Assembly (NCBI GenBank): GCA_000469685.2
Contig: LS997564.1
Span: 21,796,960-21,860,959, forward strand
Length of the DNA stretch: 64,000 nt
Direction of reading: 5' to 3'
DNA from: Haemonchus contortus
Taxonomy: Eukaryota > Nematoda > Chromadorea > Rhabditida > Trichostrongylidae
The notes beneath the pieces are model-generated. The model was not told where the DNA came from, did no database searches, and saw only the letters and a list, made by a program, of their open reading frames with translations. Below, piece by piece: positions 3,596-44,885 of this stretch. Every line of letters starts with the position of its first letter. Position 1 is the stretch's first letter. Both the position numbers and the translations under genes were made by a program.

Positions 3596-4762
3596 CCTGA
3601 ACGTGATTTAAAGTCGCTCGGTTCAATACGGGACTCAACTCGATCCAGCTGAACGCGAATTCTACCAAAGATTCAAGGAGAAGCGTGAGCTCCTAGAGCA
3701 GTACTTAGTAGATCCCACTAGGTTCGTGCAAATGTCCGAAGAGGACCAGCATGAGTACGAGATTGTAGCTTTCAATCTCGCATCAATAGAAAATTGGTCA
3801 AACTCATGTTCCGAGTTCGACGCCTGGCCATGATCTGTCTTACTACCGCGTCTCTCCCGAACACGAAGGATCCGGCGAACAGTCTCTTCCGCAGGTACTC
3901 CAGCTCGTTTGGCACTATAATAAGAGACGAAGCGTTTCAGATACCCGAGCTCGCCTTAGCAGCTATTACTAGCCGCATTCCGGAAGCGAAGCAACGATAC
4001 GTAGATGACATACACCAACTTGAATCCCACGCAAGGTGTCATCGAGTTTTGAATCCGTCTCGCTTTGGCGCTCGTAGCGCCATGAGCGTCCTAGTCGAAG
4101 CAGCAGCAGTTCTGATGTCTCTCCCTGTTACGATCCTCAGAGCGCTGAACGCACTCCCCAATCTTGTGGTCTACTGTGGCACCCTCCTTAAATGTCGCGA
4201 CAGTTCTTGCTGTCAGGTATGCGTTCTCCCACACCGCGGGTGTCTTTTATGTTTCCCGATATCGAGAGAGCCTCTAAAGAAGCAGCCAGTAAGTCACACT
4301 TTAACACGGACGAAGCACACACATGCGCTCAATTAATCGAGCTTCTGCTAGGGAACTGCATGAAACCAGAAAAGTTTTGCGTAACCTCGTTCTACAAGGA
4401 GCAGTCATGCCACCTTCAGACGCGTCTCGAATAGCTCGGCGTTGAGCTGATCAGTGTGGATTCCTTTCAAAAACGACGAAAAAAGTGGTAGTCATACTCC
4501 TAACTACAAGAACCGATAATTCAGCTAACTTCCTGAACGACTACAAAAGGATGAATGTGGCAACCACGCGATATCGCCACGGCCAATTCATCCTTGGCCA
4601 CTCAGATTCTTTGACGACCGTACCGTTCCGGCGGCGGATCCTCGACTGAGCAGCGTCGATCGATGCCATAGTTCCATCCTCGACTCTCGAGTGGTATTTT
4701 CGCGGGTAATATCCCGTCACAGAGTTCTGTCCTTCAGCTTTTTAAGTCTGAGACGGACTTGG

Positions 4763-38271: not shown

Positions 38272-38276
38272 ACATG
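38272..38276. repeat. Target-site duplication, left copy (ACATG)
   Basis: ACATG directly abuts the outer edge of the left LTR and is repeated exactly at 41992-41996 beyond the right LTR. Five bases is the usual duplication length for Ty3/gypsy and BEL/Pao integrases. Confidence 0.9.
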
Positions 38277-38664
38277 TATCAATGGTTGTGGTAGAAGTAC
38301 TCGCCAGTTTCTTGCGGTTGCGTGGGATGACCGAACACTCATAAACAGTAATACTTTATTCGGCACAGTAAGACGTTCACTCGGTAGATGGGAATAGCTC
38401 CGGCGGTTGATGCTTGAAGAAGAAGTCGAAGAAGACGTCGAAGGAAGACCCCGCTCTCGTCGCACCGACGCTTTTATAGCATTGCTCCTAGTACGTTTAC
38501 ATACATAGCTGCCGCAAAGAGTCCTATGTTTTGCCGGCGTTGACAAACGTTTACATACATAACTGCCTCGAAGAGCCTTAAGTCAAATATCTTTTTTCGT
38601 TCAAATCTATCAACTTTAACATTACACTAAATTATAACATTACATTCAGTCGGCGTTGACGACA
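38277..38664 (-). repeat. 3' LTR (388 bp)
   Basis: Direct copy of 41606-41991. On the minus strand it begins TGTCGTCAACGCCGACTGAA and ends CCATTGATA. AATAAA is at 38355-38360 and TATAAAAG at 38471-38478 (minus strand), giving U3-R-U5 order. Confidence 0.93.
38355..38360 (-). terminator. AATAAA in the 3' LTR
   Basis: Poly(A) signal about 110 bp downstream of the LTR TATA box. In this LTR it would end the element's transcript. Confidence 0.75.
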
Positions 38665-38699
38665 CTCCGGCCGCCAAATGGCCCTCATGATATCACTTT

Positions 38700-39860
38700 C
38701 CCTGCGATCTTTCTGCAGCTGCGACTTCCAGCCTCCACAGTTGCTTTTGTATTTTTTGAGTGCGTGCGACCGCGATGTATTTCGTATTGGGAACATTGCA
38801 CACAGCTCGATGGTGGAAGCCTCCATCGTTTCGACTCAGGTCTTGAAGGCTGAATCAATCAACCTAAAACAATAAAAACATTCACGCGTGCGGTATCGAC
38901 ACTCGTGGCCATCAGGGCCTTCCAAACAATGCTTACACCAACCCTTTTCCTAGATCATCCTTAAACGCTTATTCCTATTACGTATGCAAGGGCATGCATC
39001 AAAAAATGATCTCCTTCAGCTTCACAAGACGCGCACCTTCTCCACGCGGGGAAAGCGTTTGAGATCATCTAGCATCTTACGCCATCTTTTCTGCATAAGT
39101 GGTTTTGACGCATCGATCCTACGACCATTCAGACTCGGTTCACCATTCCTTGGTTAGTACTCCGTCTTCGCAATCCACTGCTTGGTACTTGTCATCGCTA
39201 GATTCTTCTGCAACTTCATTCAAAATTCTCTCCCATCAATGCCGGTCATCAACTAGACCGCCTGCCTCGCTATCTTCACCATTTTCATAGACCCTTGCCG
39301 GCGCGATTTCTTCTACTATGGGCTCTACATTTTTACTCATGTGCTCTTCAACACTTCTCCTTCTTTTCTTCTGATTCTTTTCCGAGCTTGACCATTTCCA
39401 ACTTTTGAGCTTCTATAACTTTTCCGAGGTTCTCTAATTCCAGGCGAGGGAAAGCAAGCTGATCATGAAAAGACTCGAGTTTCTTCTCATGAACTCTCCG
39501 AACCTGGGAGCTCGTTGTAGGAATCAATGACTTCACTTCTCGTTCTTGGTTTTCTAGCAGCTCCGTCACGTCACGTTGGCTGATGACCAAGTCCTTAATC
39601 TCATCTGTTCCAAAGGGATACTCGCGTTTACGCGTTCTTTCTCTTGAAATTCCGATTCATCATTAAACTCCATGATGCACCCGTAAGGTAGGCTCGTAAT
39701 CATATACCTTAATCCCATGCAAAGGATTCTTTCCTTCGTCACCTCCCCCCTTTGCAAACATTGTGTTGTTAAACACATTTGCTCTCCTGCAGAAGCTCAG
39801 AAGGATGCCTTTGTTCCTAAGGATGCGAAGCATCTTCTCATCTATCCCTCGGCGATCCTC
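38700..39860 (-). pseudogene. Coiled coil plus gag-like zinc-binding cluster (retroelement)
   Basis: Downstream of the helicase, minus-strand frames 39863-39663 and 39590-39348 (same frame, interrupted by stops) encode a Glu/Lys/Leu-rich coiled coil (RRVHEKKLESFHDQLAFPRL; GKVIEAQKLEMVKLGKES). About 38870-39040 then gives C-x2-C-type clusters: CASCEAEGDHF, and CKHCLEGPDGHECRYR followed by ECFYC (Cys codons at 38937-38935, 38928-38926 and 38871-38869). Paired Cys/His clusters of this spacing followed by CFYC resemble the C-terminal nucleic-acid-binding end of BEL/Pao-type Gag. Frames shift and stops occur. The coiled coil could be Gag or a separate product. Confidence 0.55.
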
Positions 39861-40039
39861 CACCGCATATTCATTCCGTCAATTTCCTCTCTATGAGAAT
39901 CTATGAAAAGCCACGTCTGATCAAGCAAGCACTGATCTCTCCACCTCAGTATGGCCACATGAGTTCGCTGCACTTCTTGATGCATCTGTACTGGAAAAGG
40001 CATGCGCATTTCCATTTCACCAAACAAGTCACGACTATT

Positions 40040-41003
40040 TTAAAACATCATAGCACACATGAACAAGTCCAGAAGGCAAGCATCATCAGCATCCACCAAA
40101 CCCTTCTTTATCTCTCTTTCCCACAAGTGATACTTACCGGGTTTTTGTCTCCCTACGCGACCACGCCGCTGCGTCCATGAGGCTTGGTTAATGCGTATTG
40201 TTTCCATTCTCACGTGGCCATCGAAGCACCTGTACGTCCTCTTAATGCCCAGGTATACCACAACGTCAATGTTAAGGTTGGCTCCCACCTCCACTATATC
40301 CGTTGCCACTATGATCTTCTGACTTACCTTGAGCTTATTGAGCCTAACCACAGCTACGTCATCCGTGCTTCTAACTAATTGTATCACTGGGCATGGAACC
40401 TTCCGTTGCAGTCGCTTCGCAATTCCCTCGGCTCCCAACTTGCCCTCTGCCGCAGGCACCAAGTACAATACGCTCAGCCCCTCTCCGGCTTCGGTAAGGC
40501 AAACAACCTCCGCTTTGTTGCGTGCTTCATTCTCATCAGCGGCTTTGATTTCGTGGCCAGTGATGGTGTAATTTAATTGGCTGTCACATTTCTCTCCGAA
40601 GTCTCTTTGTTTCCACTTTCGCAACGTAGCAGACATGTAAACTACGGGAGTTTATTCAGGGTGTTCTTCCGACTGGTACGTGTATTTTACAAACAACATA
40701 GTCTCAAACTGTTTCACGTGTGCTTCATCCACTATTACTATTCCATATCTATCCACGTACCGTGGTCCATTAATCAGGCTGTGTGCTAAATACCCGCGAG
40801 CTATTACAGTAAGCAAAGTATCAACTCTACAGTGCTCAGGCCGCGCTTTGGACGTAAGGCTCCTTGCGTACACCTTATTCTCATCCAACACTTCCATGAG
40901 CTGCTATTTCATTTGTTTGCACGGTTATGAGCACTTTCTTCTTCTCTTTCAAAGCTTCTCGCGCCATGTTCACAGCAACTTCACTGGTTTTTCCTGCTCC
41001 CGG
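40040..41003 (-). pseudogene. Flavivirus NS3-like DEAH helicase domain, endogenous, broken
   Basis: SF2 helicase motifs appear in family order on the minus strand. Walker A LPGAGKT is at about 41006-40986. DEAH in VIVDEAHV is at 40729-40718. SATL (motif III) is at 40633-40622, ATDIVEVGANL (motif V) at about 40306-40274, and QRRGRVGR (motif VI) at 40171-40148. The YxSATL, DIxExGAN and QRRGRVGR signatures are those of Flaviviridae-type NS3, which unwinds viral RNA during replication; potyvirus-type helicases are the nearest alternative but usually lack the protease found here upstream. Breaks: one frame change near 40900, a stop at 40654-40652 and a stop at 40042-40040. No longer functional as written. 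Confidence 0.92.
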
Positions 41004-41060
41004 GAGCGCCAGCACATACGTAACATGGCTGCCCACTGTGATCACGAGGATGTCATCATG

Positions 41061-41606
41061 CTAGGTTGCGTATAGTATCTCAACCTGCCTTTGTTGGCCA
41101 ATTAGTACGTCACACAGTACGCCGGCCAATTTGAAGTTTCCATTTCGCGCGACGTAAAAGGGGGAGCCTGATAATGTTTCTCGATAGTATTCCCTACCGG
41201 GCATACTCGCCAGAAAATACCCTTCCATGGTCTTATACAACCACGTGGTGAAAAGCTGGGTCTCTTCACGGTTCACAAGCATTACCGCGATCGTTTATCC
41301 ATCTCTGAGCCCAGAGATGTTGAGCAACCCACCCCAGGTCACAAGATCCCGTGTGACTGAGTACAGCGCAGGCTGGATCTTTCTGCCATTCGGCAGCCAT
41401 CGGCAACTCCTCCCAGTAACGTGAGCCTTACTGTGTATTATACCATCTTCGAGCACAACTCGTCCAGCGCAGGAGCGCCATCCCAGCAAATTCTGGTACA
41501 CAGCATACACTCCATTGTTCAACATCACTGTCTTTATACCTCCTTCTGTGACTACACCTGGTACGCTGCTCTGCGTATCTTGTATCCTTCCCAGCCGATG
41601 CACCAT
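41061..41606 (-). pseudogene. Flavivirus NS3-like serine protease domain, endogenous, broken
   Basis: The frame 41606-41295 carries a His in KAHVTG (41423-41421) and an Asp in TRDLVTWGG (41348-41346). In the same frame, 41282-41061 carries the nucleophile Ser in LSGSPF (41171-41169), followed by YVARNGNFKLAG. The spacings His-Asp 25, Asp-Ser about 59 and Ser to Walker A Lys about 60 fit the NS3 protease-helicase layout well. Flaviviral NS3 protease needs a separate membrane cofactor (NS2B in flaviviruses), and I see none here. A TAA (41297-41295) lies between Asp and Ser and a TAG (41063-41061) at the protease-helicase linker. The first ATG spans the LTR/PBS boundary, so translation may have begun right there. 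Confidence 0.85.
41588..41605 (-). promoter_or_regulatory. Primer binding site, tRNA-Gly-like
   Basis: On the minus strand TGGTGCATCGGCTGGGAA follows the 5' LTR with no gap. It starts TGG (complement of tRNA CCA), and its complement ends CCGATGCACCA, the acceptor 3' strand expected of a metazoan glycine tRNA. This fixes the LTR boundary and the orientation. Confidence 0.85.
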
Positions 41607-41991
41607 ATCAATGGTTGTGGTAGAAGTACTCGCCAGTTTGTTGCGGTTGCGTGGGATGTCCGAACACTCGTAGAGAGTAATACTTTATTCGACACAGTAG
41701 GAAGTTGACTCGATAAATGGGAACAGCTCCGGTGGTTGACGCTTGAAGAAGTTGAAGAAGACGTCAAAAGAAGACTCCGCTCTCGTCGCACCGACGCTTT
41801 TATAACATTGCTCCTAGCACATTTACATACATAGCTGCCGCGAAGAGACTTATATTTTGTCGGCGTTGACAAATGTTTACATACATAGCTGCCGCGAAGA
41901 GCTTCATGTGAAACATCTTTCTTCGTTCGCACCTATCAACATTTAATATTTCACTAAATTATAGCATTCCATTCAGTCGGTGTTGACGACA
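41606..41991 (-). repeat. 5' LTR (386 bp)
   Basis: Matches 38277-38664 over its full length with about 11% differences. On the minus strand U3 carries TATAAAAG at 41804-41797 and the R/U5 side AATAAA at 41699-41694. It ends CCATTGATA directly before the primer binding site. Confidence 0.93.
41797..41804 (-). promoter_or_regulatory. TATA box in the 5' LTR
   Basis: TATAAAAG on the minus strand, conserved in the other LTR. Transcription would begin about 25-30 bp further, near 41770, leaving a leader of about 165 bases before the protease frame. Confidence 0.75.
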
Positions 41992-41996
41992 ACATG
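41992..41996. repeat. Target-site duplication, right copy (ACATG)
   Basis: Exact match to 38272-38276. Confidence 0.9.
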
Positions 41997-42238
41997 TTTG
42001 TCCAGCTTCACCCAATTATATGTCATGCATCTTGAACAGGAATTCATAGGCTATCAAAAAACACGTAGAATTGGCAAACGATACATCGCAGCCACCCTCT
42101 ATAGTGAAGACAGTGCACTCTCAACATGACCGGCACAACAAGGCCGCTTTGGATATGTAAGTTTGGCCTAACCACCCTTGGAGCCCTCATTGCGCCCTGT
42201 CTAGACCGTCTTTAAAGGCACAGTTCACGACAGAAATA

Positions 42239-42835
42239 TTAGGTTGACGCATAATTATTACGGATTTTTTCGCGGCTATTTTTCTCCCGATAGAAATCGA
42301 ATATTGAGTTCGAGTTTCTTCTAGAAATGATCTACTTGATTTCCTCTACAAGAATATACTCAAAAACCATCCGCATGTTCGCGAAATTAGGCCTAACTAC
42401 TTCAAGAGAGATTAGGAGGTGGCACAGTCATTCCGCGATCTCAGTAACTTTTCGGCGATCGAACAATCAGCCAGAGCCAACCAAGAAATGGGATTTGCAC
42501 CTAAATCTGCCATACTCACCACCAGAAACTTTCATGGATTATCTCGGATTATCTCGTCAACCGTTCATCGAAAAAATAGCTCGAGAATAGAAGTTACGTC
42601 GATTCGGATGACTTGATGGCCGATGTCAAGGCGTGGATCGCCCGTAAGAATCGAAACTTCTTCGCTTTCGCGATCCGAATAACTGATCAATGGAAAGCAG
42701 TGCTCGACGTAAATGGTGAACAAGTTCCGGAGTAATTATTTGAATATGTCTTTGTTTAGAATTTCTATAGTTTCTTTCAGTAAAATTTGCTGGAAAGAAT
42801 CCGCAATAATTATGCATAAACCTAATATATAGAGG
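42239..42835 (+). mobile_element. Mariner-type transposon remnant
   Basis: Left end TTAGGTTGACGCATAATTAT (42239) and the inverse ATAATTATGCATAAACCTAA near 42807-42830 bound about 590 bp. Broken frames inside recall the C-terminal half of mariner transposase: LPYSPPETFMDYLGL, then DVKAWIARKNRNFFAF and DQWKAVLDVNGEQVPE (about 42620-42736). The catalytic DDD/E region is not readable, so the copy is dead. Confidence 0.7.
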
Positions 42836-43019: not shown

Positions 43020-44885
43020 CGGAGCTCCGCCCCCAAGGGGCGGGGCATGCGCCAGGATTGGGCGGGGTCATGGACTAATTCTTCTAATTCGGTCTCATAA
43101 CAGTCCAGACGCCGGGAAAAAATGTGCAAAGGTGAGGAATGGGTCAACAACTAAAATAAGGGAAGCTTACCGGCGGTGGGCGGAGCGTTCTCGCAGTGGG
43201 CGGTACTTTCCACAGAGATTCATAACTCAAGACTCAACGAAGGCATCGAGGCCAGGAAAAAAAGCAAAAGGGGTGAGCAAGGCCCTATGCGTGCTAGGCA
43301 TGTGTAGGCGTAGCGAAGCCCCGCCCACGGTGGGCGGGGCGTGCGTTAAGATAGAAGCTACTTTTAAAAAATGAGTGTAACTTCGTTCGGAAACGTTCTA
43401 GAATGCGGGAAAAAAGTGGTAAGAGGTAATGGAACAAGTGTGGCTGAATTCCCGAAGTGGGCGGGGTTGGCGTCAAAGTGGGCGGAGCTTAGATCAAAAT
43501 TTCATAACTCTGTTCAGAAACGTTCTAGAATGCGGGAAAAAAGTGGTTAGAGGTAATGGAACAAATGTGGCCGAATTCTTGAAGTGGGCGGGGTTGGCGT
43601 CAAATGGGCGGAGCTTAGATCAAAATTTCATAACTCTGTTCAGAAACGTTCTAGAATGCGGGAAAAAAGGGGTGGGAGGTAATGGGACAAATGTGGCCGA
43701 ATCCTCGAAGTGGGCGGGGTTGGCGTCAAAGTGGGCGGAGCTTAGATCAAAATTCCATAACTCTGTTCAGAAACGTTCTAGAATGCGGGAAAAAGGGGTG
43801 AGAGGTAATGGGACAAATGTGGCCGAATTCCCGAAGTGGGCGGGGTTAGCGTCAAAGTGGGCGGAGCCTAGATCAAAATTTCATAACTCTGTTCAGAAAC
43901 GTTCTAAAATGCGGGAAAAAAAGTGGTAAGAGTTAATGGAACAAGTGTGGCTGAATTCCCGAAGTGGGCGGGGTTGGCGTCAAAGTGGGCGGAGCTCAGA
44001 TCAAAATTTCATAACTCTGTTCAGAAACGTTCTAGAATGCGGGAAAAAAGGGGTAAGAGGTAATGGAACAAATGTGGCCGAATTCTCGAAGTGGGCGGGG
44101 TTTGCGTCAAAGTGGGCGGAGCTTAGATCAAAATTTCATAACTCTGTTCAGAAACGTTCTAGAATGCGGGGAAAAAGGGGTGAGAGGTAATGGGACAAAT
44201 GTGGCCGAATTCTCGAAGTGGGCGGGGTTGGCGTCAAAGTGGGCGGAGCTTAGATCAAAATTTCATAACTCTGTTCAGAAACGTTCTAGAATGCGGGAAA
44301 AAAGTGGTAAGAGGTAATGGAACAAATGTGGCCGAATTCCCAAAGTAGGCGGGGTTGGCGTCAAAGTGGGCGGAGCTTAGATCAAAATTTCATAACTCTG
44401 TTCAGAAACGTTCTAGAATGCGGGAAAAAAGTGGTGAGAGGTAATGGGACAAATGTGGCCGAATTCTCGAAGTGGGCGGGGTTGGCGTCAAAGTGGGCGG
44501 AGCTTAGATCAAAATTTCATAACTCTGTTCAGAAACGTTCTAGAATGCGGGAAAAAGGGGTAAGAGGTAATGGGACAAATGTGGCCGAATTCTCAAAGTA
44601 GGCGGGGTTGGCACCAAAGTGGGCGGGGCTTAGCTCAAAAATTTATAACTTTGTTCAGAAACGTCCTAGAATACGGGAAAAAAGTGGGTAGAGGTAATGG
44701 AACAAATGTAGTCCCGAAGTGGGCGGAGCTGGCACAGGAAAGCGGGGCTAAGACCAAAAATTCATCTCTTCAAAAACTTTCTGGAATGCGGAAAAAATGG
44801 TTCAGAGCAGTCAAAAGAAGGGTGGTCAAGTTTACCGTGGGAAGGGTTTGCACTAGGGTGGACGGAGCTATGATCAACCACTAAT
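43020..44885 (+). repeat. 127-bp satellite array, about 11 monomers plus degenerate edges
   Basis: Monomers of 126-128 bp start near 43431, 43558, 43684, 43810, 43938, 44065, 44192, 44319, 44446, 44572 and 44698. Each contains TGTGGCCGAATTC, GTGGGCGGGGTTGGCG, GTGGGCGGAGCTTAGATC, TTCATAACTCTGTTCAG and AGAATGCGGGAAAA. The upstream 43020-43430 and the last units are diverged. Similar translated frames recur at 127-bp steps, but 127 is not a multiple of three, so these ORFs are by-products and not protein repeats. Confidence 0.95.

Follow-up and report, generated by a model that had tools for sequence, protein, structure and literature searches.

A flavivirus-like NS3 sequence inside a decayed Bel/Pao element of Haemonchus contortus, probably captured during reverse transcription

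A decayed long terminal repeat (LTR) element with a flavivirus-like NS3 protease-helicase inside it occupies positions 38277-41991 of a 64,000-nucleotide stretch of the Haemonchus contortus genome (contig LS997564.1, positions 21,796,960 to 21,860,959; hereafter, the window). This observation, first made in an initial annotation of the stretch, is confirmed here. We consider it likely that the locus is a non-autonomous Bel/Pao element in which a single round of reverse transcription put a complementary DNA (cDNA) of a flavivirus-like NS3 gene in place of the former interior. The positions of the two joins between element and NS3 suggest that the element's reverse transcriptase slipped onto viral RNA.

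An NS3-like interior between two LTRs

The element is oriented along the minus strand of the window (Table 1). Its boundaries were drawn correctly from the start: the two LTRs of about 387 bp were recovered as direct copies, differing at 43 of 385 aligned sites (Kimura two-parameter distance 0.123), the exact ACATG target site duplications flank them, and the primer binding site lies directly inside the 5' LTR. The NS3-like stretch runs from 41587 to about 39809, between the primer site and a 3' module that we assign below to an open reading frame (ORF) termed ORF3; no leader, gag, pol or env was found between the window LTRs. Its pieces are broken by four stops, and the frame appears to change twice. 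Because they extend over about 590 codons, beginning just 5' of the protease and stopping shortly before the helicase ends, they represent a nearly complete NS3.

The NS3 features are in order and beyond chance, with a protease spacing of the Flaviviridae type followed by motifs of a superfamily 2 (SF2) helicase. The first protease piece found its best PDB match in 6urv (labelled NS3 protease; E 1.2e-7), with the catalytic His and Asp aligned. In flavivirus NS3 proteases the catalytic residues are spaced 24 and 60 residues apart, and the window protease agrees with this (25 residues from His to Asp, 61 from Asp to Ser). Since the Ser-bearing piece on its own gave neither an NS3 match in PDB nor a Pfam match, the Ser was assigned from spacing and motif. 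The Walker A piece resembles Pfam Flavi_DEAD, at a value below the curated cut-off, and flavivirus NS3 chains in PDB. Taken alone, the DEAH piece is closer to cellular DHX15 than to viral helicases (Table 1); its last 27-28 residues are 59-70% identical to three Trichostrongylus proteins. The 203-residue piece from the SAT motif to QRRGRVGR matches Pfam Helicase_C above the cut-off (5.5e-6); among the best 60 of its 110 PDB matches, 6m40, labelled 'NS3-like protein', came first (4.5e-8), followed by cellular HrpB (4.7e-6) and flavivirus NS3 (5.5e-6). This structure is the NS3-like helicase of Alongshan virus (PMC7201283). With a profile to which three strongylid relatives had been added, 6m40 again ranked first and all 17 matched rows were labelled NS3, helicase or flavivirus polyprotein, with no cellular helicase name among them. 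Structure modelling of the helicase relatives gave a poor result (mean predicted local distance difference test score, pLDDT, 40.6). The initial reading of an ordered NS3 set is thus borne out in its order, its spacing, the protease and the 203-residue helicase piece; the Ser, Walker A and DEAH pieces are weak when taken singly.

Relatives of the helicase exist in other strongylid worms. Five proteins, P0001 to P0005, passed the search with the 203-residue piece: P0001 (UniRef, Haemonchus contortus) is a predicted gene model of the window locus that agrees with the helicase piece at all of 166 aligned residues (100%) and joins NS3 to the 3' LTR; P0002 and P0004 from Trichostrongylus colubriformis are 62% identical over 201 residues and 55% over 133 residues, respectively; the P0003 cluster from Nippostrongylus brasiliensis is 62.5% identical over 168 residues; and P0005 is a distant DEAH-type helicase (36% identity over 44% of the query). 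A four-row alignment (A1), from which P0001 and P0005 were left out, later served to find P0006 of T. colubriformis, which matches the DEAH piece over a short stretch only (64% identity over 28 residues). Because the protein searches reached proteins of about 110-360 residues (203-residue piece) or 140-440 residues (A1), full-length viral NS3 proteins and polyproteins were out of their reach.

The host element and its joins with NS3

The 3' module had been taken for gag. We rejected this assignment, as a separate DUF1759 ORF holds the gag position in a relative on contig C1 and the module there stands 3' of integrase. Sequence comparison shows it to be ORF3 of a Bel/Pao family, because it lies 3' of integrase or env in L027, the C1 relative and proteins of H. 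placei and Ostertagia. The C1 relative, an element of about 8.5 kb with LTRs 98.7% alike over 314 bases, has the order gag with DUF1759, aspartyl protease, reverse transcriptase, A17, integrase, ORF3 module, LTR (A17 4.4e-36; RVT_1, DUF1759 and integrase domains also matched). Beside L027 there are an A17 peptidase (1.7e-33, L032/L027) and an integrase zinc finger (2.7e-6), then the ORF3 module, 3' of env, and then an LTR; also recorded there were a DUF5641 piece (0.0076, below cut-off) and an env piece that just reaches the Phlebo_G2_C cut-off (25.0 bits). The module follows integrase in L048 and in the H. placei protein, and a Phlebo_G2_C-like piece, below cut-off, in the Ostertagia protein. 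To the eye it is coiled-coil-like with zinc-knuckle-like cysteines.

Genome searches covered 283.4 Mb in seven contigs and scored the best candidates only. The LTR query gave 20 matching rows, with some copies split over several rows, and the 3' module gave 11, namely six loci in seven rows (the window, L022, L024, L027, L030 and L025) plus four others (256 bases in one, 33 bases in each of the remaining three). The family also has a minimal member, L025 (LTR-leader-ORF3-LTR, target site duplication CGGTG). The window element has LTRs and a short target site duplication, and its LTR and ORF3 are common to family members; the set of gag, protease, reverse transcriptase with A17, RNase H and integrase is absent from the window copy and its domains occur in ORF3-sharing relatives. 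Since gag-pol is found in these relatives and not in the window copy, we class the latter, by LTR and ORF3, as a non-autonomous derivative.

Both joins between element and NS3 lie at points of strand transfer, and the target site duplication lies outside the LTRs. At the left join, the primer site can pair with the tRNA-Gly(GCC) 3' end at 17 of 18 bases, and the match then ends. In retroviruses, the copied part of the tRNA primer ends at the modified base A58, and the window match ends where, presumably, a primer copy would be expected to stop. Four ordinary leaders (L025, L024-, L059 and C1) match the tRNA at 9-10 of the first 10 bases and at just 2-4 of the next 8; the chance of at least seven further matches in eight is 3.8e-4, for one element. 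ARAGORN recognised tRNA-Gly(GCC) in both loci scanned (three genes), and its 21-base 3' motif occurs in 112 copies in the genome. The right join lies inside ORF3, about 65 residues in, where the bases largely agree with ORF3 of other family members (Table 1). The longest word common to the surroundings of the two joins has 6 bases and does not stand at both of them as a target duplication would; runs of at least six A or T were not seen around either. These joins, together with the position of the target site duplication, uphold the proposal that the viral module was carried in inside the LTR unit by the retroelement machinery.

Table 1. Coordinates of the LTR element and its parts in the window
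Feature	Position	Strand	Basis or remark
Target site duplication, 5' side of element	41992..41996	.	ACATG on + strand; equals 38272-38276
5' LTR, 386 nt, TG...TA ends	41606..41991	-	11% different from 3' LTR; related LTR copies elsewhere in genome
Primer binding site, 18 nt	41588..41605	-	17/18 complementary to tRNA-Gly(GCC) 3' end
NS3-like serine protease piece 1 (His + Asp)	41298..41587	-	PDB NS3 proteases, best E 1.2e-7; residue spacing
NS3-like protease piece 2 (Ser, GSP motif)	41064..41294	-	Spacing; stop separates it from piece 1
NS3-like helicase Walker A piece	40884..41060	-	Flavi_DEAD 0.0012 (below cut-off); flavivirus NS3 0.008
NS3-like helicase DEAH piece, other frame	40655..40903	-	DHX15 0.006; viral helicases 1.3, 1.8; Trichostrongylus identity
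NS3-like helicase SAT-to-QRRGRVGR piece, 203 aa open	40043..40651	-	Pfam, PDB; Trichostrongylus colubriformis P0002, 62% identity
Probable NS3 C-terminal domain	39845..40039	-	Position alone; precedes apparent frame change; no Pfam match
Right junction NS3/ORF3, 11 bases	39798..39808	-	10 agree with ORF3 of L024, L027; 9 with L022, L025
Bel/Pao ORF3, 3' part, broken	38665..39797	-	Lacks about 65 residues at the N terminus; DNA 74-79% identical to that of five other loci
3' LTR, 388 nt	38277..38664	-	Pairs with 5' LTR
Target site duplication, 3' side of element	38272..38276	.	ACATG

Just outside the LTR element, the window contains a short element of mariner-like look with 50-nt terminal inverted repeats, 80% matching (42236-42828). 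A tandem array of units of about 126 bp lies at 43378-44000.

Origin of the chimera

How might an NS3 sequence have come to lie between these LTRs? We envision a scenario whereby a single particle or cell contained both Bel/Pao RNA and viral plus-strand (or subgenomic) RNA. Synthesis of minus-strand DNA would have proceeded from the 3' LTR through ORF3 and, at a stretch of about 11 bases where the two templates were nearly identical, would have moved to the viral RNA. Some 1.8 kb of this RNA would then have been copied, to a point slightly ahead of the first codons of NS3. The LTR and the 18-base copy of the tRNA-Gly primer, together forming plus-strand strong-stop DNA, would have joined this viral cDNA and not the usual leader. 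Insertion by integrase would have generated the 5-bp target duplication, after which the copy would have decayed neutrally. We infer both this order of events and viral RNA as the donor. Besides the joins, two further observations favour the scenario: DNA and protein searches found no NS3 elsewhere in the genome that might have served as donor, and Quek et al. (PMC11445058) list a Flaviviridae virus for Nippostrongylus. Their list names such a virus for N. brasiliensis, and likewise for T. canis and T. muris; for H. contortus it names two viruses of other families.

Alternatively, separate machinery such as a long interspersed nuclear element (LINE) might have placed an NS3 cDNA into an already dead LTR element, with deletions removing leader, gag, pol and env. 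The initial annotation had stated that a single NS3 locus, with other copies of the LTR enclosing ordinary gag-pol, would mean just such a later insertion. That pattern is what we found: one NS3 locus, and LTR-family loci elsewhere that hold ordinary gag-pol-env parts. The conclusion does not follow from it, because a chimera that arose in reverse transcription and entered the genome a single time would look no different. A later insertion, by contrast, requires an insertion plus deletions that end at base 18 of the primer site and inside ORF3; it would also have left joins with neither a target duplication nor an A or T run, and the decay of NS3 is consistent with the age of the LTRs. The junctions therefore favour capture, and we regard a later insertion as unlikely.

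Might the window instead hold the dead Haemonchus remnant of a strongylid lineage of LTR elements that bear NS3 as a lasting passenger or a working gene? The NS3-like proteins P0002, P0004 and P0006 (a short stretch) of T. colubriformis and P0003 of N. brasiliensis, at 55-64% identity, would fit such a lineage. In Haemonchus, however, the DNA query and three protein queries each returned a single row, the window locus. The initial annotation had named as support for a family the finding, in separate genome searches with LTR and interior, of more loci that repeat the LTR-NS3 order and have independent target duplications; no such further locus was seen. A protein search with ORF3 (proteins of 694-2208 residues) gave an integrase-ORF3 protein of H. 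placei and an env-ORF3 protein of Ostertagia, and no NS3-ORF3 fusion. Moreover, the window copy is consistent with neutral decay: at half the LTR distance, 3.8 stops are expected over 589 codons (5-95% range, 1-7), and four are observed. As the stops match this expectation, NS3 was probably open at the time of its arrival and has since decayed free of constraint. Neither an NS3-bearing element family in Haemonchus nor a working captured protease-helicase, both of which had been proposed, is supported by these results, and we hold the lineage explanation to be improbable.

The captured template might also have been a host mRNA, transcribed from a nuclear NS3-like gene of strongylids that itself descends from an ancient virus, and not viral RNA. 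NS3 relatives are indeed annotated as genes in other strongylids; these gene models are short, however, and may themselves be viral remnants, and neither DNA nor protein searches of the Haemonchus genome found such a gene. This origin, too, seems to us improbable.

Several points weigh against capture from a viral RNA as we envision it. The event order is read from one product, since one NS3 chimera is known, and the right join is placed to about 12 bases only. The comparison at the left join includes six leaders in total, one of which, the ordinary leader L059, sits inside the L022/L023 element described below, and a primer site of the full 18 bases might be a long-standing trait of this sub-lineage. 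Viral RNA is only inferred as donor because no exogenous virus with a window-like NS3 was found among viral contigs scanned with the helicase piece, or among proteins of about 110-440 residues; a nuclear NS3 gene since lost is a possible mRNA donor.

A second locus of the same LTR family, the young element L022/L023 (C3:12193441-12205296; LTRs alike at 340 of 344 positions, target site duplication AAGGA), may represent another capture, here of a rhabdovirus-like nucleoprotein. Its interior consists of a primer site, an inverted and permuted gag-pol-env block, the nucleoprotein and the start of a superfamily 1 (SF1) helicase-like ORF fused in-frame to ORF3. The nucleoprotein-like ORF pieces (C3:12195945-12197036, minus strand), upstream of the SF1-helicase-like/ORF3 fusion, match PF03216 at 9.4e-21 for one piece and 1.8e-36 in six frames with one stop; no such match was found in any of 14 control genomes. 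Like NS3 in the window, the nucleoprotein follows the sense direction of its element. The primer site is likewise complementary to the tRNA at 17 of 18 bases, and the inverted integrase block begins within the next 12. This Bel/Pao block (C3:12197879-12204923) is circularly permuted (integrase-env-LTR end-primer site-gag-protease-integrase), as if by self-integration or by template switching onto the element's own DNA. The locus is complex, and a nested insertion of the nucleoprotein is possible. A further rhabdovirus nucleoprotein match, broken by four stops, was noted at C4:18009003-18009236 (5.7e-5).

The UPF1-like SF1 helicase of L022 was considered as a second viral helicase and dropped. 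It seems to be part of another repeat: 150 genome matches were scored of 205 candidates, and the piece gave no PDB match and no Pfam match above cut-off. This UPF1-like repeat family, with L050 and L051 among its loci, has ORFs of up to 1294 residues without a stop in the listed frame, and several loci score identically; L050 has an upstream gag-like ORF with a zinc knuckle, by eye. A 193-residue ORF in the window (3755-4336, plus strand) resembles by eye part of these ORFs and is possibly another copy.

Precedents and implications

LTR-element captures of this kind are already known but rare. In eBxnv-1 of the nematode Bursaphelenchus xylophilus, the RNA-dependent RNA polymerase gene of a nodavirus lies inside a Tas-related Bel/Pao LTR element, and its authors propose copy-choice during reverse transcription; they also mention experimental retroelement capture, without virus names (PMC5177903). 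As described there, eBxnv-1 shares with the window a gene of a plus-strand non-retroviral RNA virus between degenerate Bel/Pao LTRs, in a nematode and in single copy. It differs in retaining parts of pol, whereas leader, gag, pol and env are all absent from the window. With respect to the Bursaphelenchus element, the window adds another virus family, an interior replaced in full and two joins that could be located, with the footprint of a tRNA; moreover, its LTR family holds one more virus-like gene.

Capture of non-retroviral RNA by a retroelement has reportedly been obtained experimentally in mammalian cells, in work on an intracisternal A-particle (IAP) and lymphocytic choriomeningitis virus (LCMV). 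There, too, the reverse transcriptase of an LTR element switched to exogenous RNA; the window case differs in being natural and in a germline assembly, with two LTRs and a target duplication. Tan et al. are said to have described in 2016 the LTR-mediated retroposition of host mRNAs, for which a double template switch leading to an LTR-bounded retrocopy was proposed. Their product resembles that in the window, where the template would be viral.

The same superfamily has also acquired glycoprotein genes from RNA viruses, and the glycoprotein of Atlas virus was presumably captured in this way. Atlas virus is recorded from Ancylostoma (PMC11445058), and capture of a Chuviridae glycoprotein by Bel/Pao elements is described in mosquito (PMC7642597). 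The Phlebo_G2_C env piece of L027 falls in line with these cases. In them, as far as these sources describe it, env stands beside gag-pol, whereas the viral gene in the window has replaced element genes and is broken. Viral SF1 helicase domains, finally, are reported in insect retrotransposons, mainly LINEs, in which they have been kept over long times (PMC5563155); they share with the window an RNA-virus helicase within a retroelement, the window helicase being an SF2 NS3 in one broken copy.

Conceivably, strongylid ORF3-type Bel/Pao elements are recurrent traps for RNA-virus cDNA, in which strong-stop DNA bearing the 18-base copy of a tRNA becomes attached to any cDNA at hand. We put this forward tentatively and with more doubt than confidence. 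If it were true, reverse transcription in these elements would often fail to return to the leader, and the NS3 sequences of Trichostrongylus and Nippostrongylus and the nucleoprotein of L022 would be independent products of one route and a dated record of infection.

The way in which viruses without a DNA stage enter the germline is usually guessed. The joins described here suggest one step of it, the fusion of an 18-base tRNA copy to viral cDNA, and such a join would be a signature of virus capture by LTR elements that can be searched for in any genome. Among the papers listed by the literature searches, none was seen to name an endogenous flavi-like sequence in strongylids, an absence that is weak evidence. 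For the strongylid parasites of livestock, the two loci point to infection, present or past, by flavivirus-like and rhabdovirus-like viruses.

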